Numbered from the stretch's first letter, positions 5,824-24,468 are shown. The stretch: 35,624 bases of DNA from Flavobacteriales bacterium (GCA_021739625.1 JAIPBJ010000025.1:1-35624); one strand, 5' to 3'. Notes: a model not told the origin generated them from the letters alone. Numbers and translations are program-made.

Positions 5824-5847
5824 AAAAGGTGAGAGAATTCTCTGTTT

Positions 5848-6089
5848 CCTAAGAGGAAATCTCAGAATCCTAAGAGGAAATCTCAGAATCCTAAGAGAAA
5901 GTCTCAGAATCCTAAGTGAAAGTTTCATTTTCCTGAGAGAAATATCCATAATTCTGAGAGAAAATTCCGTTTTCCTGAGAGAAATATCCATTTTCCTGAG
6001 AGAAATATCCATTTTCCTGAGAGAAAATTCCGTTTTCCTGAGAGAAATATCCATTTTCCTGAGAGAAATATTCAATTTCGTGAGAAGAA
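5848..6089 (+). repeat. 21-bp tandem repeat array B (CCTGAGAGAAA core), 12 units
   Basis: Units start at 5848, 5869, 5890, 5911, 5932, 5953, 5974, 5995, 6016, 6037, 6058 and 6079. That is twelve copies at an exact 21-bp period with no indel. The first copies read CCTAAGAGGAAATCTCAGAAT; later ones read CCTGAGAGAAATATCCATTTT or CCTGAGAGAAAATTCCGTTTT. The earliest copy contains the palindrome TTTCCT-AAG-AGGAAA. Because the period is a multiple of three and lacks stops, several frames on both strands stay open through it, but none has a credible start or signal. From 6090 to 6280 I see nothing recognisable. Confidence 0.92.
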
Positions 6090-6280
6090 TTCTGAGAAAA
6101 CGTGGTAGAAATAAGGGAATCTGGAGGAGATGGAAATAGGACACAGGCCCTGTGATATGATACGTTGGCGCAGAATGGGGCCGTGTTTGCAGACCGAGGT
6201 TGCGGGGACCGGACGATCAACAGTGTCAGATTGTTGGACACTCCCCCATATCTGTCTCCAGGCAGAGCGCCAGATCCTCC

Positions 6281-10382: not shown

Positions 10383-13300
10383 ATGCACACTCCTGTAATC
10401 CGGATTCTTTTTGTTCTGCCTGCGCTGTGGGCCCTGTCGATGGTTCCGGCAGCAGCACAGGCATTGTTCAACCCGGGAGGGGCGAGCTATGTGAACATCG
10501 GTGATCTGGACGTGGCCGGCACCCAGATCACCGTGGAAGCACTGGTGATGAGCGTGGGGCCGAGCGTGAACATCGTTTCGAAACATACCGGCCCTGGAAA
10601 TGTGAATTACCTGTTGCGTCCGGGAGGCGTGGAGATCACCACATCCAACGGCTACATTGCAGCTCCGGCCAATTTCTCTCCGCAGCCCAACGTGTGCTAT
10701 CACGTTGCATTCACATACGATGGGGCCACCGTGCGCTATTATGTGAACGGATGTCTTGCCTCCTCAGTGGCCCATAGCGGAACGTTGGTGACCAACAACC
10801 TCGCCACTGCCATCGGCAATCAGAGCAACTGCCAATGCGAGGCTTGGAACGGCTATATAGATGAGGTGCGCATCTGGAACGTGGCGCGTGCCGAGGCCGA
10901 CATTCAGGCCAACATGTTCGACCTGCCCAATCCCACCGTACAGGCAGGGCTGCAGGCCTATTACAAGTTCAATGGCGATTATACCAATGCGCAGGGCAAT
11001 GCGGCATGGAACGGAACACCTATCGGATCGCCCCAACTGCTGGCCAACGCCACGTGCGACAATGCCGATTTCACCCATACGGCCTCGGCCACGGTCACGG
11101 ATGTCTCCTGCCCCGGAGGCAGCAATGGCACGGCCACGCTGAGCAGTGCTGGTGGTGCCCCGGACTATTACTATTCCGTGGACGGGGTGAACTACGGTCC
11201 GGCCAACACGGTGAACAATCTGCCCGCTGGAAATGCCACGGTATTCGCACGTTCGGGCATCGGCAGCTGTATCGTCAATGTGCCAGTGACCATCACGGAG
11301 CCGGCAGCCATTGCTGTCAACATCGTAGGGACAGATCCAACGTGCTATGGATATACCAACGGGACGGCCGCCTTGACCGTGAGCGGGGGCACATCACCCT
11401 ACAGTTTCCTTTGGTCCAACGGCAGCACGCTTCAGAATCCCACAAACCTTTCAGCAGGCAACAGCTCGGTGACGATCACCGATGCCAACGGATGCACTGC
11501 CAGCGGAAGTATCGACCTCACCGAACCTCCACAGGTTGTACCTCAGGCCTCTGGCACTTTTGTGAGCAACGTGGGCGTGTGCGATGCCACTGGCACTTCC
11601 ACCCCGTTCGGTGGCACCCCGCCATACACTTATCTGTGGGGAAACGGTGCCACCACGTCCACAGCTACTGCACTTTGTGAAGGCCCCAACACGCTGACCG
11701 TCACCGATGCTTTGGGATGCACCGGACAGCAGGTTCTGAACATCAGCGTGCCCGTGTGCCTCACCGATGTCGATTTCAACACTTGGCAACAGGCCGGTGC
11801 GCCAGCAAACGGCAACTGGGTCGTGCAGCTTGCCGGGGCACAGGTGCGGCAGACCATCAACGGCAACCCGACCTTCTTCCTCACACCTGTGGATTACATC
11901 AATGTGCGGCTGAAAGGAAGAATGCGCACCACCAATGGGGACGATGATTTTATCGGGGTCGTGTTCGGCCACAAATTGCCGTTGGGCAACTCCACTTTCT
12001 ATGACACCTACCTGTTCGACTGGAAACAGGTCAACCAGAACAGCAATGGATTCCTGGGGCAGGAAGGTTTTGCGCTGAACCGCATAGTTGGGAATATTCC
12101 CAACACAGCAGCAGCTCTGGGTCCCACATTCTGGGGCCACACGAACACGGCTGAATTCACGGTCCTGGCAACGGATTATGGCCCCGGCAAAGGATATGTG
12201 CGCAACCAGTTCCACGATATTGAGGTGCTCTACACCACCACAAGGGCCGTCATCATTGTGGACAGCGACACCATTTTCGACATTCCCGGATGTTATGAGC
12301 CGGGGAGGTTCGGATTCTACAACTATTCGCAACCTGACGTCTATTACTCGGACTTCACCTACGAGCTTTTCACAAATTTCAATCTGGAGAGTCAGCGCGT
12401 ATGCACGGGCGATTCGGCCCGAATGGTCTTCTATGAGCCCTGTGGTGCATTCAACATCCTGTCGCAGTTCGATGAGCTGCAATGGGATTTCGGGGATGGG
12501 ACAGGGTTGGTGGTCAATGGCCTCACCTCATCCAACGCCAATCCTGCCCACCTGTATCAGAATGCAGGGAACTACACGGTAAGGCTCATAGCACTGGATG
12601 CTTTGGGCTGCCGCGACACGGTCTATCGCGATATACAGATATTGCCACTGCCCCAGCCCAACTTCACTGTCACCGACCGCTGCCATCAGGATCTGACGCA
12701 GTTCGCGGATGCTACTGTCATAGGAGGTTCGGCAGTGAACACATGGATATGGGACCTGGGCGATGGAGCCGTCAGCGCAGTGGCCAGCCCCCAGCACACA
12801 TACACCCTGTCAGGCATTTACAATGTCAACCTTGCAGTGACCGATGCTGATGGATGTTCCAACGCAGCGACCCTTCCTGTTGAGATATATGCCCTGCCCG
12901 ATCCGATGTTCGCATCCGTTTCGGTCTGCAATGGTGAACCGATGGACATGATAGACGTGTCGCAGGACCCCAACGGCATCAGCACCACCGATTGGCAACT
13001 GGGAGATGGGACCACTGCCTCCACCCCGCTGGTCTCGCACCTTTATCCGGCCGCAGGAACATACAATGTGACATTGGAGGTGACATCAGGAGTGGGCTGC
13101 ACCGATCAGGTGACCCAACAGGTGATGGTATTCCCCAATCCTGTGGCCGACCTCACTTTCTCCGAGGTGTGTGCCGGACAGGTCACCCAGTTGAATGATG
13201 CCTCGACCGTGGGCGCTCCTTCCATGATCGACACTTGGATGTGGGACATCGGCAACAATGGCATCACCGACTATCAGACCCAGAACGCCCAGCACACTTT

Positions 13301-15896
13301 CGGACTTGGTGGAACATACAATGTCACGTTGACCGTGGCCACGGATTTCGGCTGCGAGCACGCGGTGACCGTGGCGGTGATCAGCGACCCGAATCCGGTG
13401 GCTTCAGCATCAGCCACAGAAGCCTGTCTCGGGCTGCCGAACGACTTCACAGACCTATCGGCCATCGCATCGGGAACTGTGACAGGATGGGATTGGGATT
13501 TCGGTGACGGCAACACTTCCACTGCTCAGCATCCGCAGCACACCTACGCTGCATTCGGCACTTACAATGTCACGCTCACCGTCACATCCGATCTGGGCTG
13601 CACAGACATTACGGCCGTCAATGCGATGGTGCATGAACTTCCAGTCCCTTCATTCGCCCCCATCAATGCATGCCATGCGGCCAACTTCCCCTTTGCCAAC
13701 ACCTCGACCATCGGGGCAGGTTCCATTGCAGGATGGGCATGGGATTTCGGTGATGGAGGAACCTCAGCAGCGCAGAACCCCACGCACACCTACCCCGCCT
13801 TCGGCACTTACGATGTGCAGCTGACCGCCACAAGTGCCGAAGGCTGCATTGACAGCATTTCGCAGTCCATAACCTTGCACGACAACCCGCAGGCAGGCTT
13901 CGAAGTGCCGCCCGTGTGCCAAATGGAACCTGTGCAGTTGCTGGACACCAGCATTATCGGTGAAGGCAGCATCGTGGCCTGGAACTGGACATTTGCCGGA
14001 GGCGGAACTTCCGCAGTGCAGAACCCTACACATGCATTCCTCACCAGCAGCAACGTGAATGTGACCCTCACCGTGACCTCCGATTTCGGATGCACAGGAA
14101 CCACCACTCGGCCCGTGACCGTATTCCCAAAACCCGCAGCGGCTTTCAGCGCGCCCGATGTCTGCCTGAACGAGGAAACCGTCATCACCGACCAGAGCAC
14201 AGTGGCCAGCGGCACTATCGACCTGTTTGAATGGGAACTGAGCGATGGCACCACCGAGACGCTGCCCGATTTCAATCACCTGTTTGTTTCACCCGGAATC
14301 TACGACATCACCCTGATGGTGGAGACCGACCAAGGCTGCCGCGACACCATCATCCAACAGACAGAGGTGCATCAATTGCCCGATGCCGATTTCACGTTCA
14401 GCGATGTGTGTCTCGAAACAGAGGCCATGTTCACAGATGGCAGCACGGCCAATTCTGGCACACTCAACCTTTGGCAATGGGATTTTGGCGATGGGGAAGA
14501 TGCCACAGGCCAAGGGCCACAGCCTCACTCCTACCCTGTTGCTGACGACTATGATGTGACGCTTATTGTTGGAACCACTGTGGGCTGTTCGGACACACTG
14601 ATACAGACCCTCACCATACACCCGATGCCTGTTGCTGATTTCACGGCAGATTCGGTGTGCTTTGGTGTGGCTACGCAGTTCACCAATCTGAGCACCGTGA
14701 CCACAGGTAGCATCACAAGCAATGTTTGGGAATTCGGTGGTGGACAGGGCAACGAAACGCCTGCGCCCAGTTTCTTATTCCCCAGCAATGGCTATACGAA
14801 CGTGACGCTGACCGTGAGCACCGCGCTCGGATGCTTTGCCGATACGATGAAGGCCATCCGTGTCTATGTGCTGCCCGAACCCGAATTCACGGCCTTCGAC
14901 ACCTGCGCTGGCAAGCAGATCACATTCACCAACCTGTCCATCATCTCTGAAGGGGCAATCGCATCCAACGATTGGACAATGGGCGATGGCAATCTTTATA
15001 CCTCCACATCACCCACGCACATGTACGCGGATGGGGATTTCTACACGGTGCGGCTGGTGACCACATCCAATTATGGCTGTGTGGACAGTACCTCTCTTGT
15101 CGTAGAGGTCTATCCGCTGCCCGTGCCGTCCTTCACACCTGAGCCGAATGAAGGTTGTGTGCCGCTGCCGGTGAGTCCCAACAATACTTCGACCATCGCC
15201 TCTGGATATTCCCTTGCGGGCTACGAATGGCGTTTCGGCAACGGAAGCACGGCCGGGGTGCCCAATCCCACTACCACCTACACAGATGAGGGCAGCTATG
15301 ACATCACACTCATCGCCACAAGCGCGAAAGGCTGCGTGGACTCGCTCACCATCACCGATGCTGTGACGGCATGGCCCAAGCCTGTGGCCGATTTCGTCAC
15401 AGACACGCTGCGCTATCACATGCGCTTCCCCAAGCCGCGCATCACCGAAATGAGCCAAGGGGCAACGGTCTGGCACTGGGACTTCGGTGACGGGACCGAA
15501 TATGAGGAACAGGTGCCGACACACGTGTATGAGGAACACGGCACGTATGACATCATCCAGACCGTGTTCAACGACTTCGGATGTTCGGACACTTTCGGAA
15601 TCCGCGTCATAGTGGATCCCAACCTCACGTTCTTCATCCCCAGTTCATTCACCCCGAACGGTGACGGGCTGAATGATGGTTTCTTCGGAACGGGCGAGGG
15701 CATTGAGGACTATGAGATGTGGATCTATAACCGCTGGGGTCAATTGATCTTCTATTCGAAGAACAAGGACCGCCATTGGGAAGGCAGGTTCAATGGAAAT
15801 GATGTGCAGGTGGGGGTTTATAGCTACAAGTTCATCATCAAGGACATCACCAACCGCACGAAGGTCTATTCGGGCGAGGTGACCATCTACCGCTGA
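10383..15896 (+). CDS. Giant T9SS-secreted adhesin-like protein: LamG, SprB repeats, thrombospondin-C domain, 13 PKD domains, type B sorting domain
   Basis: 1837 residues, exported by a signal peptide (1-26, cleaved after PAAAQA) and then probably by the type IX system. Order of domains: concanavalin-like LamG_3 domain (about 27-219, ending GYIDEVRIWNVARAEADI ... AYYKFNGD); three SprB-like repeats (about 224-458, with SCPGGSNGTATL and the similar PTCYGYTNGTAALTVSGG); a thrombospondin-C-like lectin domain (about 459-663: DDDFIGVVFG ... FDWKQVNQ); thirteen PKD domains of about 82 residues (about 674-1745), most showing W-D-F-G-D-G, a HTY motif and VTLTVTS; and the type B C-terminal domain (about 1746-1837: SSFTPNGDGLND, YNRWGQLIF, W.G, VGVYSYK). 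The last is the gliding-motility-associated (CHU_C) type. Expected role: cell-surface adhesion or glycan binding; ligand unknown. Its stop overlaps the next start as TGATG. Confidence 0.95.
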   Translation: MHTPVIRILFVLPALWALSMVPAAAQALFNPGGASYVNIGDLDVAGTQITVEALVMSVGPSVNIVSKHTGPGNVNYLLRPGGVEITTSNGYIAAPANFSPQPNVCYHVAFTYDGATVRYYVNGCLASSVAHSGTLVTNNLATAIGNQSNCQCEAWNGYIDEVRIWNVARAEADIQANMFDLPNPTVQAGLQAYYKFNGDYTNAQGNAAWNGTPIGSPQLLANATCDNADFTHTASATVTDVSCPGGSNGTATLSSAGGAPDYYYSVDGVNYGPANTVNNLPAGNATVFARSGIGSCIVNVPVTITEPAAIAVNIVGTDPTCYGYTNGTAALTVSGGTSPYSFLWSNGSTLQNPTNLSAGNSSVTITDANGCTASGSIDLTEPPQVVPQASGTFVSNVGVCDATGTSTPFGGTPPYTYLWGNGATTSTATALCEGPNTLTVTDALGCTGQQVLNISVPVCLTDVDFNTWQQAGAPANGNWVVQLAGAQVRQTINGNPTFFLTPVDYINVRLKGRMRTTNGDDDFIGVVFGHKLPLGNSTFYDTYLFDWKQVNQNSNGFLGQEGFALNRIVGNIPNTAAALGPTFWGHTNTAEFTVLATDYGPGKGYVRNQFHDIEVLYTTTRAVIIVDSDTIFDIPGCYEPGRFGFYNYSQPDVYYSDFTYELFTNFNLESQRVCTGDSARMVFYEPCGAFNILSQFDELQWDFGDGTGLVVNGLTSSNANPAHLYQNAGNYTVRLIALDALGCRDTVYRDIQILPLPQPNFTVTDRCHQDLTQFADATVIGGSAVNTWIWDLGDGAVSAVASPQHTYTLSGIYNVNLAVTDADGCSNAATLPVEIYALPDPMFASVSVCNGEPMDMIDVSQDPNGISTTDWQLGDGTTASTPLVSHLYPAAGTYNVTLEVTSGVGCTDQVTQQVMVFPNPVADLTFSEVCAGQVTQLNDASTVGAPSMIDTWMWDIGNNGITDYQTQNAQHTFGLGGTYNVTLTVATDFGCEHAVTVAVISDPNPVASASATEACLGLPNDFTDLSAIASGTVTGWDWDFGDGNTSTAQHPQHTYAAFGTYNVTLTVTSDLGCTDITAVNAMVHELPVPSFAPINACHAANFPFANTSTIGAGSIAGWAWDFGDGGTSAAQNPTHTYPAFGTYDVQLTATSAEGCIDSISQSITLHDNPQAGFEVPPVCQMEPVQLLDTSIIGEGSIVAWNWTFAGGGTSAVQNPTHAFLTSSNVNVTLTVTSDFGCTGTTTRPVTVFPKPAAAFSAPDVCLNEETVITDQSTVASGTIDLFEWELSDGTTETLPDFNHLFVSPGIYDITLMVETDQGCRDTIIQQTEVHQLPDADFTFSDVCLETEAMFTDGSTANSGTLNLWQWDFGDGEDATGQGPQPHSYPVADDYDVTLIVGTTVGCSDTLIQTLTIHPMPVADFTADSVCFGVATQFTNLSTVTTGSITSNVWEFGGGQGNETPAPSFLFPSNGYTNVTLTVSTALGCFADTMKAIRVYVLPEPEFTAFDTCAGKQITFTNLSIISEGAIASNDWTMGDGNLYTSTSPTHMYADGDFYTVRLVTTSNYGCVDSTSLVVEVYPLPVPSFTPEPNEGCVPLPVSPNNTSTIASGYSLAGYEWRFGNGSTAGVPNPTTTYTDEGSYDITLIATSAKGCVDSLTITDAVTAWPKPVADFVTDTLRYHMRFPKPRITEMSQGATVWHWDFGDGTEYEEQVPTHVYEEHGTYDIIQTVFNDFGCSDTFGIRVIVDPNLTFFIPSSFTPNGDGLNDGFFGTGEGIEDYEMWIYNRWGQLIFYSKNKDRHWEGRFNGNDVQVGVYSYKFIIKDITNRTKVYSGEVTIYR

Positions 15897-16396: not shown

Positions 16397-16468
16397 TTGC
16401 GGCCGAAAGCCAATGGCTATACTTGCAGATTCCGCACAATTGCCCATCGAAACAGCCAATTGCACATC

Positions 16469-17269
16469 ATGTCCAAGGCGATCATCCTCGTCACAGCACT
16501 TCTGCTATGCACCTCTGCGCTTTTTGCACAGACAGGCACTCTTCAGATCTATTGCACCCCTAACGTGCAGATCTATCTGAACGACCGCTATGTGGGAAAG
16601 ACCGATGCGGACAGGTCGGGCATCCTATTGGAGAACATCATGGCAGGAGATGTCACTGTCCGTGCAGTGCAGACCGGGCATGAAACAGTGACCCGAAATG
16701 TTCTGATCATTGAGAACACCATCTCCGAAGTCAGTATCGCCATGGTGCAAGCACAATTGAAACACAGGACAACTGTTGGCATCGACCTGCATTTTGGCAC
16801 GTTCGGGCTTTTCAATGTCAATGATGCGTTCACCAAGGCGAGTTATACCTTCGGGGCAACACCTTTTGCTGATTACAGGATCCATCAGCATTTTGCCATA
16901 GGGGGCGAAATCATGAGCATGTGGGGCAAACCCGAGACAGCAGACCATGCTCGATGGATGCTCTGTCCCAATCTGCGGATCTCCGCCAAGTTCAATCCCT
17001 TCAAGCGATTAGGCATCCATGTGCTGGTGGCGGGTGGATTCTCCTATTGGCCCGAGAGCCCTGATCTGCCGCATCTGACACCTACACTGAACACCAATAG
17101 ATTCGGATGGGACATCCGCGCCACGGCAGGCGTTGGCTACCTCATTGCAGCACGCTCATCGCTCAACCTCAGCTTCGGATATTGGGCTTCAAGCACTACT
17201 GGCGATGACATCATTTGGATCACACACGACACCATGCTCATGGGGCTGGGCTACGGATACAGCTTCTGA
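16469..17269 (+). CDS. Secreted PEGA-domain protein with outer-membrane beta-barrel-like C-terminus
   Basis: 266 residues from ATG 16469, which gives a compact signal peptide (IILVTALLLCTSALFAQ). Residues 22-95 form a PEGA-like domain (IYLNDRYVGKTD ... VRAVQTGHETVTRNV), a small beta-fold common in Bacteroidota envelope proteins. From about 105 to the end the sequence alternates aromatic and hydrophobic residues in strand-like blocks (GIDLHFGTFGLF, FGATPFADYRI, LRISAKFNPF, WDIRATAGVGYLI, LNLSFGYWAS) and ends in YGYSF, as expected of a beta-barrel. Function unknown. A promoter-like TATACTTG lies about 50 bp upstream. The alternative upstream frame start at 16397 gives a poor signal peptide. Convergent with the next gene, 15 bp apart. 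Confidence 0.8.
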   Translation: MSKAIILVTALLLCTSALFAQTGTLQIYCTPNVQIYLNDRYVGKTDADRSGILLENIMAGDVTVRAVQTGHETVTRNVLIIENTISEVSIAMVQAQLKHRTTVGIDLHFGTFGLFNVNDAFTKASYTFGATPFADYRIHQHFAIGGEIMSMWGKPETADHARWMLCPNLRISAKFNPFKRLGIHVLVAGGFSYWPESPDLPHLTPTLNTNRFGWDIRATAGVGYLIAARSSLNLSFGYWASSTTGDDIIWITHDTMLMGLGYGYSF

Positions 17270-17284
17270 ACTGTATCTTATCGG

Positions 17285-17992
17285 TCACCTTACGGACTCC
17301 CATTTGCGCCAAGGCACTCGCAGCATCAATCCTCCACCGAGATATAGCACCGCCCCATGTAGGCCGTGTGAAGGGAAAAGATGCCCCACCCCGGCTTCGA
17401 AAATGAATCTGACATGGGGGGTCACCCTGGCCTGCGCTCCAAGATTCAACATCACTGTCGAGACATGGACAGGAGCGATCAGCCCCTCGGCCGCCTTTGA
17501 ATCCAACGTGCTGCCCGCATAACCGTGGGCATATCCGTAGCGCACAGTTCCATAGACATCCCAGACACGGTCGGGCCTCACGGTTCCAATGGTCAGTCCG
17601 AAATCTCCATTCACGCTTCGCCCCTGCGAATCGTCACCGATGCCGATGCCACCCTCCAACCTCACTCTTGACATCAGTTGGTATCGTGCCGACACCTTTC
17701 CCGACACCGATACCCGCTTCTCGAAGGTATAGCCCAACAAATCTATCCCGATGTCCCAACGTTCATTGATACCTTGCCTCACACGGCCGAACCAAGCGTG
17801 TTCTGCAATCTCATTCTCTTCAAAGAAGCTGATCCCAGCACCGGCCGCCCCCACCGCTTCGGTCACACCCTTTCCTGTCACCTGTGGCCCACCGAAGGTG
17901 ACCATGGGCGAAGGCGGTGCAATGGCAATGCAACCGGAAAACATGAGTGCGGCCACAGCAGTCAGAGACAGAAATTGACGATAGGGCATCAT
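17285..17992 (-). CDS. Outer-membrane lipoprotein, probable beta-barrel, unknown function
   Basis: 235 residues. The N-terminus is a lipoprotein signal with lipobox MFSGC, giving a lipidated Cys21. After a Ala/Gly-rich linker (VTEAVGAAGAGISFF) the protein shows repeated amphipathic strands with Gly and aromatic residues (WDIGIDLLGYTF, VSGKVSARYQL, VRLEGGIGIG, WDVYGTVRYGYAHGYAG, TVMLNLGAQARV, VRFIFEAGVGHLF, AVLYLGGGLML). This suggests a small barrel or surface sandwich. No family recognised. Two adjacent ATGs, 17992 and 17989, could start it. It lies 41 bp after the TPR gene and may be the last member of a minus-strand transcript 18935-17285. Confidence 0.75.
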   Translation of the reverse strand: MMPYRQFLSLTAVAALMFSGCIAIAPPSPMVTFGGPQVTGKGVTEAVGAAGAGISFFEENEIAEHAWFGRVRQGINERWDIGIDLLGYTFEKRVSVSGKVSARYQLMSRVRLEGGIGIGDDSQGRSVNGDFGLTIGTVRPDRVWDVYGTVRYGYAHGYAGSTLDSKAAEGLIAPVHVSTVMLNLGAQARVTPHVRFIFEAGVGHLFPSHGLHGAVLYLGGGLMLRVPWRKWESVR

Positions 17993-18033
17993 GGCTAACT
18001 TCCAATGTTGACGGCCAGCAGATTCACACCCTG

Positions 18034-18534
18034 CTACCTGCAACGATTGTTCTTCAGAATGATGGCCGCCTCCGCATTGCCCAATTTCTTGGATGCTTTC
18101 CAGTCATCGCAGGCGTCCTGCGACCGTCCAAGACCATTCTTGGCCCAGCCCCGGTTGTTGAATGCCTCCTGATTTTTCGAATCAATGCTCAAGGCATGGT
18201 CAAAATCGGCCATGGCCTCATCAAACCTTTTGAGCTTGTTCAGCGCACTGCCTCTGCTGATGTAGGAGAATACATGACCAGGCTGCTTGGAAAGCACCAC
18301 CGAGTAGTCAGCCACCGCACTTTCATAATCATTGAGGATGGACGCGGTGAGTGCACGCTGTAGAAGAGCGGTCAGATTCTCCGGGTTCTGGTCCAATACC
18401 TTCGAATAGGAATCATGGGCCTTCTGAAACTCACCGTTCTCAAATTGCAAATCACCCTGACGTTCCAGAGTCTCAGCATCCTGAGCCAACGCTAAAATTG
18501 GGATGAACAGAAGTAAGAGGAACCAACGTCTCAT
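18034..18534 (-). CDS. Secreted TPR protein (module copy 1)
   Basis: 166 residues starting at ATG 18534, whose ATGA overlaps the stop of the upstream gene. A short hydrophobic signal peptide (WFLLLLFIPILALAQ) is followed by about four tetratricopeptide repeats (residues 22-150). They are recognisable by GDLQFENGEFQKAHDSYSKV, SAVADYSVVLSKQPGHV, ALNKLKRFDEAMADFDHAL and FNNRGWAKNGLGRSQDACDDW. It ends with ACDDWKASKKLGNAEAAI and a terminal Cys-Arg. TPRs mediate protein-protein contacts, here in the periplasm. It is a paralogue in layout and ending of the TPR gene at 20936-21343, whose tail reads ACEDWKFALGLGDPTA and ends HCKP. Confidence 0.85.
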   Translation of the reverse strand: MRRWFLLLLFIPILALAQDAETLERQGDLQFENGEFQKAHDSYSKVLDQNPENLTALLQRALTASILNDYESAVADYSVVLSKQPGHVFSYISRGSALNKLKRFDEAMADFDHALSIDSKNQEAFNNRGWAKNGLGRSQDACDDWKASKKLGNAEAAIILKNNRCR

Positions 18535-18935
18535 TTTCCCTGAGTTCGGACAAGCATTTCGCGCAACACGACCATCAGTTCCTCGGCAACGGCAGCATCC
18601 TTTGCATCGAATGCAATGCGCCAACGATAGTTCTTCTGCCCGTCAGCATGCAATTGCCGTTGGACACATTCGCCCATTTCAGAAAAACAGGAAACGGACA
18701 CGATACCGTTCTCAACATCGTAGGCCACGCTCAAAGGGTCAAGGTCATAGATGCTCACCTTGTCGGTCTTCACCTTCTTTCCAGAACGGAAACCATCGAT
18801 GATGAACAGTTTCCCTTTCACCTGAACCGAATTTTCGGGACCGATGAGGACATTCACCCTACTCAGAGCATCGCTGTGCTGCGCCATGCCGCTTAAGGGC
18901 ATCAAACATATAGCTATGAGCCCAAAGAGTCTCAT
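18531..18935 (-). CDS. Small secreted protein of unknown function
   Basis: 134 residues from ATG 18935, with a signal peptide (LFGLIAICLMPLSGMAQ). An ATG three codons upstream at 18944 is the alternative start. The mature part looks like a small beta-rich domain: VNVLIGPENSVQVKGKLFII, then KTDKVSIYDLDPLSVAYD, a Cys-containing strand IVSVSCFSEMGECVQ, and a C-terminal helix (AAVAEELMVVLREMLV). I recognise no family. It is translationally coupled to the TPR gene by ATGA and divergent from the long charged-helix gene, with only 62 bp between the two starts. Confidence 0.75.
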   Translation of the reverse strand: MRLFGLIAICLMPLSGMAQHSDALSRVNVLIGPENSVQVKGKLFIIDGFRSGKKVKTDKVSIYDLDPLSVAYDVENGIVSVSCFSEMGECVQRQLHADGQKNYRWRIAFDAKDAAVAEELMVVLREMLVRTQGK

Positions 18936-18944
18936 ATTTGGCAA
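18931..18944 (+). promoter_or_regulatory. Promoter-like element CTCATATTTGGCAA
   Basis: CATATTTG differs from TAnnTTTG at one base and is placed 58 bp before the ATG at 18998. The same CTCATATTTG-S-CAA block (one base different) lies at 21421-21434 before the paralogous gene. Confidence 0.45.
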
Positions 18945-18997
18945 GCCCTCCCTTCAAGGGATTCCATGGGATGAAAGTGGGGAAAAATTCAGAGTCG

Positions 18998-20467
18998 ATG
19001 ACATTGCTTTGGCGAAATATGTTTCTAAGCGCAGTTCTGCTGCTGACCCTACCGGTCTTGGCGCAAGAGGTGCAGGTCAACATCCGCTTTGATGTGAACA
19101 AAGGAAAGCACAGCGACAGCCGTGTGGTCATCACCCGGGACGGAACATCGTTCAAAACCATCGACCCGGGCCGCAACCGTATCACCGAGCCATTGGCGTT
19201 CGGCCACGAATATGTGTTCACATTCGAGAAGCCGGGCTATATCACCAAACGCATCACCATCAGCACCAAGGGAGTTCCGAAGGACGTTCAGGGCGATGAG
19301 CTCGACTTTGATTTCGTGGTGGAGATATTCCAACAGTATGAAGGAATCAACACCGTGGTGTTCAACCAGCCAGTGGCCCGCTATTTCTATGATGCGAAGG
19401 AAGATGGTTTCGCCTACGACACCGACTATACGAAGAGCATCCGTGCAGCATTGAACACCTTCGAGGAAGAATACAGGCAGCAGGAACAGGTGCAGCAGAG
19501 TTCGTCTGCAACAGCGAAGGCAGAAGAAGAAAAACGGAGGGCTTCTGAGGCGCTATTGGCCGAAGAGCAGCGCAAAGCCGCTGAAGCAAGGGCGGCCGAT
19601 GAGAAAAGGGCAGCGCTGCAACAGGCAGAGAATGAGCAAATGGCAGCAGCCCAAAAAGCCGAAGAAGATGAACGCAGGGCACAGGAGCTCCGTGATGCTG
19701 AAGAGGCAAGACTGACCAAGCTCCGCGCAGAGGAAGATGCCCGAAAGGCCGCCATGCAAGCTGCCGAGGACGAACGCAAAGCACTGGAGGCCCGGCAAGC
19801 GGAAGAAGAGCGTCTTGCCAAACTCCGCGCAGAGGAGGATGCCCGCAATGCTGCCGCCATGAAGGTGGCAGAGGAGGAACGGAAAGCATTGATTGCCAAA
19901 CAGGCCGAAGAGGAACGGTTGGCAAGCATGCGTGCAGATGAGGAAGCGCGCAAAGTGGCAGAGATCAAAGCAGCGGAAGAAGATCGGTCAGCACAACAGG
20001 CACGCAAGGCCGAAGAGGAACGCCTCAAGGCCGAGGCCGTCAGGACCGAAGAAGAACGCAAACGGGCCGAAGCCGCCAAAGCCGAAGAAGAAAGGCGCGC
20101 AGGAGATGCCGAACGGGCCGCTGCCGAGCAGCGCAATCGCGATGAGCAGGCCAAGGCCGATGACGAACGAAGGAAAAAGGAGGCGCGGGAGCGTGCCGAG
20201 CGTGAACAAAAGGCAAATGCCAATGCCGCTAAGATCATTGCGGAGCAGAAGCCCATGAGCATAGCCGATGCCGGGCACATCGTTTCACGTTCTGAGAATG
20301 TTTTCCGTGAGGGAACCATGGAGGTCACCGAGGTCACCATCAATCGGGAGCGGCAGACCTTCGTTTACCGTATGGTGCGCCACGACTGGGGCGGCATCTT
20401 CTATTTCAAGAACGATAACAGCATCACCAAACGCGATTTTGATGCTGAATCAACCGCGAAGGAGTGA
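18998..20467 (+). CDS. Exported charged-helix protein with conserved N- and C-terminal domains (paralogue 1)
   Basis: 489 residues from ATG 18998 (signal peptide with core FLSAVLLLTLPVLAQ). Three parts are visible. A beta-rich N-domain (about 23-160) contains FTFEKPGYITKRITIST, reminiscent of PEGA/regulatory-like folds. An uninterrupted Ala/Glu/Arg/Lys helix follows (about 165-417), TolA-like, with an internal repeat of 34-35 residues starting AEEERLAKLRAEEDAR, seen three to four times. The C-terminal domain (418-489) has KPMSIADAGHIVSR, TINRERQTFVYR and DWGGIFYFKND, shared with the paralogue at 21476. The helix could span the periplasm as a stalk. It is not TolA itself, as no membrane anchor or TolA domain III is seen. 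Function unknown. The first in-frame start, TTG 18938, is less likely. Convergent with the next gene, 70 bp apart. Confidence 0.85.
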   Translation: MTLLWRNMFLSAVLLLTLPVLAQEVQVNIRFDVNKGKHSDSRVVITRDGTSFKTIDPGRNRITEPLAFGHEYVFTFEKPGYITKRITISTKGVPKDVQGDELDFDFVVEIFQQYEGINTVVFNQPVARYFYDAKEDGFAYDTDYTKSIRAALNTFEEEYRQQEQVQQSSSATAKAEEEKRRASEALLAEEQRKAAEARAADEKRAALQQAENEQMAAAQKAEEDERRAQELRDAEEARLTKLRAEEDARKAAMQAAEDERKALEARQAEEERLAKLRAEEDARNAAAMKVAEEERKALIAKQAEEERLASMRADEEARKVAEIKAAEEDRSAQQARKAEEERLKAEAVRTEEERKRAEAAKAEEERRAGDAERAAAEQRNRDEQAKADDERRKKEARERAEREQKANANAAKIIAEQKPMSIADAGHIVSRSENVFREGTMEVTEVTINRERQTFVYRMVRHDWGGIFYFKNDNSITKRDFDAESTAKE

Positions 20468-20537
20468 AATCCTTTATCAGGCATGGAGAATTTCGCCACT
20501 CAAAGGAATGTCTCCTATCAGTTGTCGGATTCCAATC

Positions 20538-20930
20538 TCAATCCTTGTAATTCCTGTTCACGTCCTCCAACGAAGGGAACACCGTGCTCTCGTCCCCGGC
20601 CTTGCGTGCCCAGCTCAGGTATTTTCCTGTTCCGATGCAAGCATAGGCACGCAGGGAATCGCGTGGGGCCATCCTGCTGTGCTGATATTTCTTCCAGCTT
20701 TTGTCCGCCTCCTGCACACATACCATCACATCGATGGACTCGGTGCAGATGTTGCGCAGATAGACCGCATAGCTGTCCTGCGAATTGGCACATTGTGCAC
20801 AGCTCTCGCCCCAGCCAGAACGGTACTTCTCCACGCAGTCGCCATATTCATCCATGGTGACAGGGGCAGAAGATGGTCCAGACAGTGCGATGACAGTGAA
20901 AGTGGTCAGGATGATGATGAACTTGAGCAT
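20538..20930 (-). CDS. Small secreted six-cysteine protein of unknown function
   Basis: 130 residues from ATG 20930, with a signal peptide (FIIILTTFTVIALSG). The mature domain has six cysteines (positions 32, 44, 47, 62, 71, 98). Five fall within 40 residues in DCVEKYRSGWGESCAQC and further on (NICTESIDVMVC), so a disulfide-stabilised fold is likely. No family recognised. Alternative start TTG 20939 would overlap the stop of the TPR gene as TTGA, matching the coupling seen at 6889. It occupies the place taken by an unrelated small secreted gene in the first module copy. Confidence 0.72.
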   Translation of the reverse strand: MLKFIIILTTFTVIALSGPSSAPVTMDEYGDCVEKYRSGWGESCAQCANSQDSYAVYLRNICTESIDVMVCVQEADKSWKKYQHSRMAPRDSLRAYACIGTGKYLSWARKAGDESTVFPSLEDVNRNYKD

Positions 20931-20935
20931 GATGG

Positions 20936-21343
20936 TCAAGGTTTACAATGGTACTGTTCTGATAGATGCTTGGCGGTCGGGTCTCCCAGACCAAGGGCAA
21001 ATTTCCAATCTTCACAGGCCATACGCACATTGGCCATGGAAAGATGCACTCTGCCCCGTTCGATATATGCAGTCGGGTTCTCGGCCTCTGCACCTATGAT
21101 GGCTGTGAAGTCTGCCAGCGCGCGTTCGTATTCACCGGTTTCGTGAAAGGACATGCCCCGCTTCACCAATGCAGGCACATTGACAGGATCGTATTCGATC
21201 ACACCGGTGAAAAAAGCAATGGCATGCCCGTGCTCACCTATTTCAAAGTAGTGCTGCCCCTCGTTGTACATACGTTCCAGGTCTTGCGCTGTCGCACACG
21301 TTGACAATGCACAGATCAAGGTCAATGTCCAAAGTGTCTTCAT
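20936..21343 (-). CDS. Secreted TPR protein (module copy 2)
   Basis: 135 residues from ATG 21343, with a signal peptide (LWTLTLICALSTCATAQ). About three TPR units are present: YNEGQHYFEIGEHGHAIAFF, VPALVKRGMSFHETGEYERA and TAYIERGRVHLSMANVRMA. The end ACEDWKFALGLGDPTAKHL with a terminal Cys three residues from the end is a common finish of Bacteroidota TPR proteins and is shared with the copy at 18034. It is divergent from the second charged-helix gene (133 bp between starts). It is followed by the six-cysteine gene with almost no gap. Likely periplasmic interaction partner; function unknown. Confidence 0.83.
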   Translation of the reverse strand: MKTLWTLTLICALSTCATAQDLERMYNEGQHYFEIGEHGHAIAFFTGVIEYDPVNVPALVKRGMSFHETGEYERALADFTAIIGAEAENPTAYIERGRVHLSMANVRMACEDWKFALGLGDPTAKHLSEQYHCKP

Positions 21344-21420
21344 GCGCCCATCATTCCTATCAATATCTATCAAACATCATTCTACTGCAACCCATCACAT
21401 CCATTCTTTGTAGAAAGAAC

Positions 21421-21434
21421 CTCATATTTGCCAA
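21421..21434 (+). promoter_or_regulatory. Promoter-like element CTCATATTTGCCAA
   Basis: Second copy of the CTCATATTTG-S-CAA block, 46 bp before the ATG at 21476. A clear ribosome-binding-like GAAGGTG stands just before that ATG. The surrounding sequence is not otherwise alike between the two loci, which argues that the block is functional. Confidence 0.45.
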
Positions 21435-21475
21435 CCTTGTTCCCGAGCTTGATTTGCGAGGTTGAAGGTGATAAA

Positions 21476-22735
21476 ATGATTCCGAATATCGTGCTACGCG
21501 CTATTTTTTGCTGTTTGCTCCTCCACCTGTCATTGTCCGACTTGGCAATGTCGCAACAGCTGAGCATCACTGTCCGCTACGGCATCAGTGACGGGGTGCG
21601 CACAGGTAGCAAGTTCACCCTCAATCTCAACGGTTCGCCTTTGAAAATGCTGCGTCCAGCACCAGAGATCATCAACGAGAAACTGGATTTCGGAAATATG
21701 TACGTGTTGGTTTTCGAGAAACCTGGCCATGTGACCAAAAGCATCGCCATCAATACGGCCAAGGTTCCTACTGATGTGCAGAAGGGAGGTCTCAATCTGA
21801 CGCTGTCCGTATCCCTTTCAACAGAAGGGAAGCCTGACGATCCCGACACGTTCATCAAATACACTTATGATGCCGCCTCCAATGGATTCATCAAGGAGCG
21901 AAGCGGCCCTGAAGTGACGTATGGGCAGACCGCAGAAGCGCGCAAAAGCGCAGAGGAACTTTACAACCTCATCACCAAACAGGAAGAGAAAGAACTACAG
22001 TACAAGCAGCATTTCGTGAAGGAGGATGCCCTGGAAGGGCGCAAGGGCGAATTCTCGCAGAAAAAAGAAGAGCAGGATGACGAAGTGCAAAGAGCAAAGG
22101 AGGAACAGAAGGCGGAGACCATTCGCAGGGCCGATGAAGCGCGGGCTGCCCGGGTTGCGCAGATAGAGGAACAGCGCAAACAGTCGATGTCCGAATCGGA
22201 ACGCAAGGAGACTGAGAACCTGAAGAAACGGGAAGAACAGCAGCGCAAACAGATAGCTGAGATTCAGGCCAAGGAAGCAGTTCGGAAGGAAGAAGACAAG
22301 AAGCTGCAAGAGCAGAACCGCATTGAGGCGGAGGCCAGACGTGCGGAAGAGGACCGCAGACTGAAGGATGCGGCAGCCAAACAGGCTGAAGAAGCGCGCA
22401 GAAAACAGGAGGCCGCTGCCAAGGCCGACCTTGAGAAACGTAAACGTGAAGCACGGGAGAAGTTCCAGCAGGAGCAAGGCGGTCAGACCGCCAAACCTGC
22501 CTCAGCTGCCGAAGAGCGGCCAATGACCATTCAGGAGGCCGGCAAGATCGTGTCGCGCACAGAGGAGATCATCAAGGAGGACAAGCGTGTCATCCGTCAG
22601 ATCACTATAAAACGAGAGCGGCAGACCTTTGTGTACCGTCAGGTGAAGTATGATTGGGGCGGCATCTACTACTTCAAGAACGACATGGACATCACCAAGA
22701 ACGACTTCGAACTGGAGACGACCTTGGAGAAGTAG
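21476..22735 (+). CDS. Exported charged-helix protein with conserved N- and C-terminal domains (paralogue 2)
   Basis: 419 residues from ATG 21476 (signal peptide core FCCLLLHLSLSDLAMS). Same plan as the gene at 18998. The N-domain contains LDFGNMYVLVFEKPGHVTKS (compare LAFGHEYVFTFEKPGYITKR). A long Glu/Lys/Arg/Gln helix covers about 150-345. The C-domain (about 346-419) has RPMTIQEAGKIVSR, TIKRERQTFVYRQ and DWGGIYYFKND. The helix is shorter by about 55 residues and lacks the neat 34-residue repeat of paralogue 1. The near-identity of the C-domain against drift elsewhere marks it as the functional core. Unknown function. The start at TTG 21428 is rejected because it precedes a good ribosome-binding site and signal peptide. 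Followed by a 596-bp repeat-filled gap. Confidence 0.85.
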   Translation: MIPNIVLRAIFCCLLLHLSLSDLAMSQQLSITVRYGISDGVRTGSKFTLNLNGSPLKMLRPAPEIINEKLDFGNMYVLVFEKPGHVTKSIAINTAKVPTDVQKGGLNLTLSVSLSTEGKPDDPDTFIKYTYDAASNGFIKERSGPEVTYGQTAEARKSAEELYNLITKQEEKELQYKQHFVKEDALEGRKGEFSQKKEEQDDEVQRAKEEQKAETIRRADEARAARVAQIEEQRKQSMSESERKETENLKKREEQQRKQIAEIQAKEAVRKEEDKKLQEQNRIEAEARRAEEDRRLKDAAAKQAEEARRKQEAAAKADLEKRKREAREKFQQEQGGQTAKPASAAEERPMTIQEAGKIVSRTEEIIKEDKRVIRQITIKRERQTFVYRQVKYDWGGIYYFKNDMDITKNDFELETTLEK

Positions 22736-22812: not shown

Positions 22813-23316
22813 GATCCGCTCAGGCTATCTGCCCATGGGATGGATAACGCTGACGATCCGCTCAGGCGATCTGCCCACGGGATGGATAACGCTGACGATC
22901 CGCTCAGGCGATCTGCCCACGGGATGGGGAACGTTGACAATCCGCTCAGGCGATCTGCCCACGGGATGGGGAACGTTGACAATCCGCTCAGGCGATCTGC
23001 CCACGGGATGGATAACGCTGTCGATCTGCTCAGGCGATCTGCCCACGGGATGGGGAACGTTGACAATCTGCTCAGGCGATCTGCCCACGGGATGGGGAAC
23101 GTTGACAATCTGCTCAGGCGATCTGCCCACGGGATGGGGAACGTTGACAATCTGCTCAGGCGATCTGCCCACGGGATGGGGAACGTTCTTGAGCTGCCCA
23201 AGAGATCTTTTCTTCCCGTCAGTAACGTTCTTGAGCAGCTAAAGAGATCTTTTCTTCCCGTCAGTAACGTTCTTGAGCAGCCCAAGAGATCTTCTCTTCC
23301 CGACCATGACCGAGCG
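22813..23316. repeat. 42-bp tandem repeat array C, 12 units of two subtypes in one register
   Basis: Units begin at 22813, 22855, 22897, 22939, 22981, 23023, 23065, 23107, 23149 (type 1, about GATCYGCTCAGGCGATCTGC then CCACGGGATGGRKAACGYTG), and at 23191, 23233 and 23275 (type 2, GAGCAGCYMAAGAGATCTTT then TCTTCCCGTCAGTAACGTTC). Spacing is exactly 42 bp throughout, with no indel, even across the change of subtype. Type 1 units carry a near-palindrome GATCcGC-TCAG-GCGATC; type 2 units carry AGATCT. Several frames on both strands remain open only because 42 is a multiple of three. The flanks 22736-22812 and 23317-23331 show nothing else. Confidence 0.95.
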
Positions 23317-23331
23317 TCAATAGTAGCGTGT

Positions 23332-24468
23332 TCAATCCTTACCTCCACCGGTCAACTTCCGCTTACCGGCCCAGCCGAACGAATAGCCCACCTTGAGGTC
23401 GAGGAAATCTGCCACCTGATGATGGGCTTTCAATCCCGCACTGACAAAAAGCCAGGGGGTCACATGGAACGTGAGTTCGTGGCGATGATACCAACGTGCT
23501 ATCTCCGGAAAATCGTCAAAGGCATAGACCCCCACATATTGCCCGAACTGAATCTTGCCCAGCCAGAACTCATGGCCCACATAGACCGAGGCCCGATGGT
23601 GGCTGCGTGTCGGGTCATCGGACCGAAGGATGCGCACCCTGCGCGAAATGTCCATTTCCCATGTAGCCCCGCCTGCCACAGCCGATGAACGGTGGAACCA
23701 GCGCGCATATTGCGCACTTATGTTGAGCACCCAGAACTGCGCTGGATTCTGGGCCGAAGCGTTCTTCAAGGCGTTGCCCACATCCAGCTCAAAGCGGTTC
23801 TTCTTCTCGGGCGGTGGTCTGCGCATTCTGCCGCGTGCGGCCAGCGCCACAGGCCGGAAGGTGTATTCCACGCCCAGATGGCCAGATGGGAAATTCAACC
23901 CCTTGTTGGGGTTACGGATGCCTCCGTTGCTGATGTGGTTGTAATTGCCACCGATGCGGATGTTCCAGCGGTCGGTTACCCGATAGCTGAATCCGATGCC
24001 CAGCACGAGTGGGAAGGCCACATTTGTGCTGTAGGCAAGATTGTGAGGATTGCTCACCTCGTGATATGGCCTGTCCATGAAGGCAAGTCCCAGAAGCCCA
24101 ATCCTGAATGAAAGATTGAACCTGCGCGGCACGAAGAACACAGGTTCCACATAGATGTAGGTGTAATAGGCCGAACCGAGCACGGGGCCATTGTCGAAAT
24201 TGAAATAGTTGACCGAGAGTCCCACTCGCGGATAGCAACTGCAAAAGCGATAGGCCTTGTCGGTGATGAGCTGCCAGCCCAGATCGGCCTCGAACCCGAA
24301 AGGGTAGGACTGCTTGAATTCAAACTCGGAGGAGTGTTTGAGCAGATAGCCGTAGTGCCCACGAAGTCCAAGTGAGAAGATACTCCTGCGCGTGCTGTCG
24401 GGCGCAGTCTGTGCCAATGCTGATGCGCTGAGCAGAACGCAGAGGGCTATGACGGATGTACGCAGCAC
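23332..24468 (-). CDS. PagL-like lipid A 3-O-deacylase / acyloxyacyl hydrolase family outer-membrane protein
   Basis: 378 residues with a signal peptide (VIALCVLLSASALAQ) from a GTG start at 24468. The segment NYNHISNGGIRNPNKGLN at residues 175-192 matches the active-site region of PagL, an outer-membrane esterase that removes the 3-O acyl chain of lipid A. His178 and Ser180 correspond to the catalytic His and Ser. The rest alternates strand-like blocks (FSLGLRGHYGYLL, YIYVEPVFFVPRRFNLSFRI, PLVLGIGFSYRV, HLGVEYTFRPV). At 378 residues it is about twice the length of PagL; the second half (from about 225) looks like a further barrel-like region. Lipid A remodelling in the outer membrane is the likely role. 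The gene faces repeat array C. Confidence 0.82.
   Translation of the reverse strand: MLRTSVIALCVLLSASALAQTAPDSTRRSIFSLGLRGHYGYLLKHSSEFEFKQSYPFGFEADLGWQLITDKAYRFCSCYPRVGLSVNYFNFDNGPVLGSAYYTYIYVEPVFFVPRRFNLSFRIGLLGLAFMDRPYHEVSNPHNLAYSTNVAFPLVLGIGFSYRVTDRWNIRIGGNYNHISNGGIRNPNKGLNFPSGHLGVEYTFRPVALAARGRMRRPPPEKKNRFELDVGNALKNASAQNPAQFWVLNISAQYARWFHRSSAVAGGATWEMDISRRVRILRSDDPTRSHHRASVYVGHEFWLGKIQFGQYVGVYAFDDFPEIARWYHRHELTFHVTPWLFVSAGLKAHHQVADFLDLKVGYSFGWAGKRKLTGGGKD

Follow-up and report, generated by a model that had tools for sequence, protein, structure and literature searches.

A conserved set of four genes, here called NC, c1, TPR and c3, underlies the locus at positions 17,285–22,735 of a 35,624-nucleotide stretch of DNA from a Flavobacteriales bacterium (GCA_021739625.1, JAIPBJ010000025.1:1-35624; the whole stretch is referred to as the window). 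Judged by sequence families, gene order and co-occurrence, NC/c1-TPR-c3, in which an operon encoding two small exported proteins and an exported tetratricopeptide repeat (TPR) protein stands divergent from the NC gene (the slash marks the divergent junction), is a conserved, co-inherited and previously undescribed module. The window itself holds a rearranged derivative of this module, with NC duplicated and the c1-TPR-c3 trio split. Its six genes for exported proteins lie in the order TPR1-c1/NC1, then c3-TPR2/NC2, and all four module families are present in this split order, with a lipoprotein gene beside them (Table 1). A preliminary description of the window, made from its sequence, had placed all of these genes correctly. 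It had also recognised two adjacent loci built on a shared plan, each with minus-strand genes for a small secreted protein and a TPR protein facing a plus-strand gene for a helix protein, and this plan was borne out.

Around the relatives of the NC C-terminal domain (C-domain) that we fetched, a c1-TPR-c3 operon divergent from NC recurred in the genus of the window and in many other families, and most relatives showed the complete NC/c1-TPR-c3 order. Among 178 Bacteroidia genomes (≥90% complete, 113 genera), c3 was detected in 31, belonging to 15 genera, and c1 in 30; 29 genomes carried both (hypergeometric P = 7e-30, in a test that ignores kinship between genomes). By a count from the match tables, c1 and c3 were within about 1.3 kb of each other on one contig in 27 of these 29 genomes, a spacing that offers room for one TPR gene. 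The two exceptions were the window, where NC1 lies between them, and genome G049, where they are on different contigs. Of the 31 genomes with c3, at least 24 had a C-domain match within a few kb, among the matches listed, and in several of the rest the contig breaks off. GTDB genomes with c3, some of which also belong to the 178-genome set, were scanned separately and yielded 27 loci, all from uncultured Bacteroidota; a module TPR gene was directly upstream of c3 in 27/27, and the complete NC/c1-TPR-c3 set was present at 20. The gap between the open reading frames (ORFs) of NC and c1 did not exceed 200 bp in any complete module, and the c1-TPR and TPR-c3 gaps mostly ranged from overlap to about 60 bp. 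In the window, the start codons of c1 and NC1 are divergent with 62 bp between them; starts that are this close and divergent make shared control of c1 and NC likely.

The C-domain itself is far more widespread than the module. It was found in 87 of the 178 Bacteroidia genomes, with up to eight copies per genome, most of them without the trio, and in just 2 of 148 genomes sampled across the phylum. When 52 NC proteins were placed in a tree, those linked to the trio fell into one clade of 33 rows. For the rows that had been sampled through the C-domain, trio linkage was 19/20 inside this clade and 0/19 outside it (Fisher P = 3e-10, with the contig-edge locus L061 and the c1-only locus L062 scored as linked and phylogenetic dependence ignored). 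The preliminary description had suggested searching C-domain homologues for neighbouring TPR genes. Most of the family turned out to have no such neighbours, whereas members of the NC clade to which the window belongs nearly always have the trio beside them.

No specific match to c1, c3 or the WGG C-domain was found in Pfam, NCBIfam or the PDB, and literature searches found no described system of NC/c1/TPR/c3 composition, as the preliminary description had also held. The analysis defines an undescribed four-gene set and three protein families (c1, c3 and the WGG C-domain) without a specific database match. In a phylum whose envelope biology is poorly mapped, the window further captures a split of the set following duplication of NC, from which testable predictions of partners can be drawn.

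NC1 and NC2 aligned end to end with 32% identity (E = 1e-59, a score that derives partly from the low-complexity helix), and their last 72 residues, the C-domain, were 57% identical, in line with the near-identical C-terminal domain noted earlier. An N-terminal domain (N-domain) of about 115 residues, absent from the earlier account, is also common to both. On these alignments, the two are full-length paralogues, related outside the low-complexity helix through both terminal domains. The N-domain matched CarboxypepD_reg (PF13620) in 4 of 32 NC members (best 1.4e-8); the N-domains of NC1 and NC2 are below the PF13620/PF13715 threshold and are tied to the carboxypeptidase-regulatory-like domain via the family profile only. 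The N-domain is a divergent member of PF13620 and PF13715 (CarboxypepD_reg and CarbopepD_reg_2), set apart in NC by its combination with a linker and the WGG C-domain. Foldseek returned no match at E ≤ 0.001 for the NC model, and its list below significance includes transthyretin and carboxypeptidase M. The C-domain was modelled as a small sheet followed by a final helix, also with no Foldseek match at E ≤ 0.001, and its profile gave no credible match in the PDB.

Between these domains, the helices of NC1 and NC2 are enriched in E-to-K/R pairs at i+3/i+4 (z = 6.6 and 4.7, respectively), and their hydrophobic residues show no heptad periodicity (z = 0.8 and −0.8). We therefore rejected a coiled-coil reading of the window helices, whose composition suits a charged single helix. 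Linker length varies between 60 and 1507 residues across the NC family, and not every linker is helical; some module members carry short linkers rich in G, P, N and S.

The preliminary description had seen in these proteins the periplasmic rod of a trans-envelope complex. In such a TolA-like scheme, NC would be a stiff helix linking both membranes, the TPR protein a CpoB-like adaptor and the lipoprotein an outer-membrane anchor. Indeed, the succession of head, charged helix and C-terminal domain resembles TolA, and Tol-Pal (TolA, CpoB) is the nearest known layout, both systems having an exported long charged helix with a small C-terminal domain and a periplasmic TPR protein encoded nearby. TolA models matched weakly (5.7e-10 in one relative, 0.0009 in NC2), probably owing to helix composition; we set aside matches to TrlF, TolA and LcrH/SycD models as low-complexity or generic TPR similarity, under the curated cut-offs where these are shown. 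The rod would also fit a 2025 study that reports no identifiable tol-pal loci in Bacteroidetes and anticipates further outer-membrane-stabilising systems (PMC12204202), although the missing tol-pal is context for a Tol-Pal-like stabilising reading, not evidence for it. However, none of the 52 NC proteins has an internal transmembrane segment or the SxHxLxS motif, and their N-terminal hydrophobic stretch resembles a cleaved signal peptide. NC thus differs from TolA in having neither the inner-membrane anchor nor the SHLS motif, and in carrying an N-terminal beta-sandwich head. No TolQ/TolR, TolB or Pal was seen in the module, and no tolQ, tolR, tolB or pal was recognised by eye in the listed flanking genes, few of which were Pfam-scanned. 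The variable length and composition of the linkers likewise do not support a fixed trans-envelope rod. Furthermore, conservation of the lipoprotein does not follow that of the module: its only homologue in the genus is on contig C39 of genome G008, whose module is on contig C1, so that we rejected it as a module part and could not uphold its earlier interpretation as an addition to copy 1. Altogether, we regard the rod as improbable.

The two small proteins of the window have no similarity to each other and match two separate conserved families, c1 and c3, whose genes flank a single TPR gene within one operon in other genomes. By this family assignment, they are two distinct members of one ancestral operon. 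The preliminary description was right that the small secreted proteins differ, and their sequences are unrelated, but they are not diverged copies of one gene. We found no Pfam or PDB relative of c1, and neither the c1 nor the c3 profile gave a credible match in the PDB. The c3 protein was modelled as an Ig-like sandwich (predicted local distance difference test score, pLDDT, 84), with no Foldseek match at E ≤ 0.001, and is probably a disulfide-stabilised Ig-like protein.

TPR1 and TPR2 are homologues with 25% identity (E = 7e-17), TPR2 being without one repeat of about 35 residues relative to TPR1. Against Pfam TPR models, TPR1 scored 65 bits (cut-off 27.8) and TPR2 scored 32.8 bits (cut-off 32.7) and 31.5 bits (cut-off 27). 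The ACxDW...LG...C ending that had been reported for both was confirmed, and it was also present in all 15 module TPR proteins aligned. Other TPR proteins with this ending, including one non-module relative (L064), have the same tandem repeats, export and ending; the module subfamily differs in that it ends SKKxGNxEAxIILKNxxCK and is tied to c3.

How the split order of the window arose can be traced in part. Window NC1 is the ortholog of NC1 in genome G006 (support 99/86), and window NC2 that of G006 NC2 (100/99), so the NC duplication predates the split between the two lineages. G006 has the arrangement NC2-NC1/c1-TPR-c3, and further cases of tandem NC genes are G013 (L050) and L124. The c3 gene of the window is not next to TPR1 and c1 but downstream of NC1, between the two NC genes and directly after TPR2, which faces NC2. 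Either the whole module was doubled, with copy 1 losing c3 and copy 2 losing c1, or NC alone was doubled and c3 moved; TPR2 is too diverged (branch length 3.9) for its sequence to choose between these routes. The tandem duplication followed by specialisation that the preliminary description proposed therefore stands for NC1 and NC2, which are tandem paralogues older than the G006 split. It does not stand as a simple duplication of a TPR, small-protein and helix unit, because the small proteins differ ancestrally and TPR2 does not group with TPR1. A local rearrangement, an alternative that concerns the origin only, would have doubled NC and landed c3 beside a TPR gene of other descent. The arrangement in G006 fits it, as do the 65% identity of window c3 to G006 c3 and the position of TPR2 in the tree, on a very long branch and not sister to TPR1, its closest relatives being module TPRs at 37% identity or less. 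TPR2 has nevertheless kept the canonical placement and direction of a module TPR with respect to c3 and NC2, which whole-module duplication with reciprocal loss would predict, and we rate the local rearrangement at slightly under an even chance.

Partners within the module are suggested by loci at which it is incomplete. At L116, L117 and L122, TPR-c3 is retained beside an FKBP lipoprotein, while c1 is absent from the genome and C-domain proteins are distant or missing. The retention of TPR-c3 after loss of c1 and of a close NC suggests that NC pairs functionally with c1 and TPR with c3. As for location, none of the four families has an internal transmembrane segment, and a lipobox pattern is rare (0/61 NC, 2/36 c1, 1/44 TPR and 1/41 c3 ORFs). 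Together with the apparent export signals, judged by hydrophobicity and sequence pattern alone, this makes it most likely that all four proteins act in the periplasm. There, NC may serve as a two-ended tether, an idea prompted by conserved ends that flank a variable middle: a prealbumin-like (carboxypeptidase-regulatory-like) head and a WGG/YFKN end would be connected through a linker whose length varies freely. The c1 protein, encoded on the divergent side and lost together with NC, most likely binds or controls NC, and the TPR protein would be a docking protein for c3. Jointly, the four proteins would probably make up an assembly by which components of the outer membrane or the surface are held or organised. 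In the lineage of the window, NC1 has kept c1-TPR1, and c3 lies with the second, diverged TPR2 facing NC2. We give a periplasmic assembly of this kind, with an NC tether paired with c1 and TPR paired with c3, about an even chance.

Several observations weigh against this assembly. The pairing is not absolute, since L120 has c1-TPR-c3 without an adjacent NC (C-domain proteins are elsewhere in the genome) and G049 has a lone c3 without a TPR neighbour. The hydrophobicity cut-off was passed by only part of each family (37/52 NC, 17/28 c1, 19/36 TPR and 27/33 c3 proteins). The outer neighbours of the module vary widely between families, so that genomic context gives no clear function, and conserved ends with a variable middle could also be explained by functions other than a tether. 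Finally, families, conservation, gene order, co-occurrence, joint loss and folds were computed, whereas physical contact, localisation, tethering and purpose are what we infer from them. It would be highly speculative, and in our view very unlikely, that the assembly is a Bacteroidota-specific tethering or force-bearing system of the periplasm, with a carboxypeptidase-like head, an adjustable spacer, a WGG end and a TPR/Ig-like docking pair, partly stabilising the outer membrane as Tol-Pal does.

The module could instead be an accessory of type IX secretion or gliding, in which NC, TPR and c3 would aid PorP/SprF- or GldH-like outer-membrane parts. In several genus members a PorP/SprF-SPOR gene adjoins the module, in G049 the lone c3 precedes a GldH gene by 11 bp, and the type IX protein PorE combines TPR, carboxypeptidase-like and OmpA parts (PMC12204202). 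The OmpA-like proteins of the PorE/CHU_0125 family likewise bring TPR and carboxypeptidase-regulatory-like domains together in the Bacteroidota envelope; they differ from the module, whose parts are separate soluble proteins without a lipobox, OmpA or TolB domain. Pfam scans found no OmpA domain in module proteins, and matches to PorE/CHU_0125-family models were weak and, where cut-offs are shown, far below them. SprA is present in 172 of the 178 genomes, against about 31 for the module; type IX secretion therefore does not require the module, and SprA co-occurrence is uninformative as evidence. Neighbours of the PorP/SprF or GldH type are not shared across families, and no module protein matched the type IX sorting domains TIGR04183 (type A) or TIGR04131 (type B). 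We consider an accessory role of this kind unlikely. A surface structure, with NC and c3 as extracellular fibres or coats and TPR and c1 as their periplasmic chaperones, would suit the repetitive linkers of variable length and the Ig-like disulfide protein. It too seems doubtful, as neither a type IX sorting signal nor, apart from the signal peptide, any other known secretion signal was found in the module proteins. The periplasmic assembly thus remains the reading that we prefer.

Table 1. Features of the module locus in the window (positions counted from the first nucleotide of the window)
Feature	Position	Strand	Remarks
Lipoprotein, beta-barrel-like sequence	17285..17992	-	Adjacent to the module; tested and rejected as a part
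TPR1, exported TPR protein, canonical module TPR gene	18034..18534	-	Ends ACDDW...LGN...C; 4-bp overlap with the end of c1
c1, small exported protein	18531..18935	-	Invariant Cys pair C83, C90
Divergent intergenic region c1/NC1	18936..18997	no strand	Probable shared or overlapping promoters
NC1, canonical module NC gene	18998..20467	+	Signal peptide, N-domain, charged helix, C-domain
NC1 carboxypeptidase-regulatory-like N-domain	about 19064-19465	+	Within NC1
NC1 charged helix	about 19466-20242	+	Within NC1
NC1 C-terminal WGG/YFKN domain	about 20243-20464	+	Within NC1
c3, small exported protein	20538..20930	-	Predicted Ig-like beta-sandwich; six Cys follow the signal peptide
TPR2, diverged, shortened TPR protein	20936..21343	-	Position normally held by the module TPR upstream of c3
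NC2, second NC paralogue	21428..22735	+	First ATG 21476; N-domain about 21554-21895; C-domain about 22511-22726

Genes next to the module were also inspected at other loci. A fatty-acid desaturase gene directly follows NC at L041, L042, L043 and L051, that is, in three genus members and one other family, and was rejected as a general module partner on account of this narrow range. PagL-like, lipid A acyltransferase and FKBP neighbours were similarly rejected as module parts because they are lineage-limited. Beyond c3 in genus members (L042:12712-14687) lie a DUF4442 thioesterase-like gene and a gene whose PorP/SprF product carries a SPOR domain. In G049, the lone c3 (L097:1022-1893) is on the same strand as the gene for the gliding lipoprotein GldH downstream of it, and a transglycosylase-like gene is near.

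In the window, two arrays of 42-bp tandem repeats (22814-23302; about nine and three copies, 92–94% matches) lie directly downstream of NC2; they are open in several frames and probably not a gene. Also next to NC2, a minus-strand gene (23332-24468) encodes a PagL-like lipid A deacylase/outer-membrane beta-barrel domain (PF09411, 1.5e-10). On the other side, convergent with the lipoprotein gene, a plus-strand gene (16397-17269) encodes an outer-membrane beta-barrel-like protein with a PEGA-like domain (sub-threshold). Further upstream, a plus-strand gene (10383-15896) encodes a PKD-like repeat protein of 1837 residues that carries a type IX sorting domain of type B (TIGR04131, 1.5e-11), and overlapping tandem-repeat arrays with periods of 21, 42 and 63 bp occupy positions 5845-6092.

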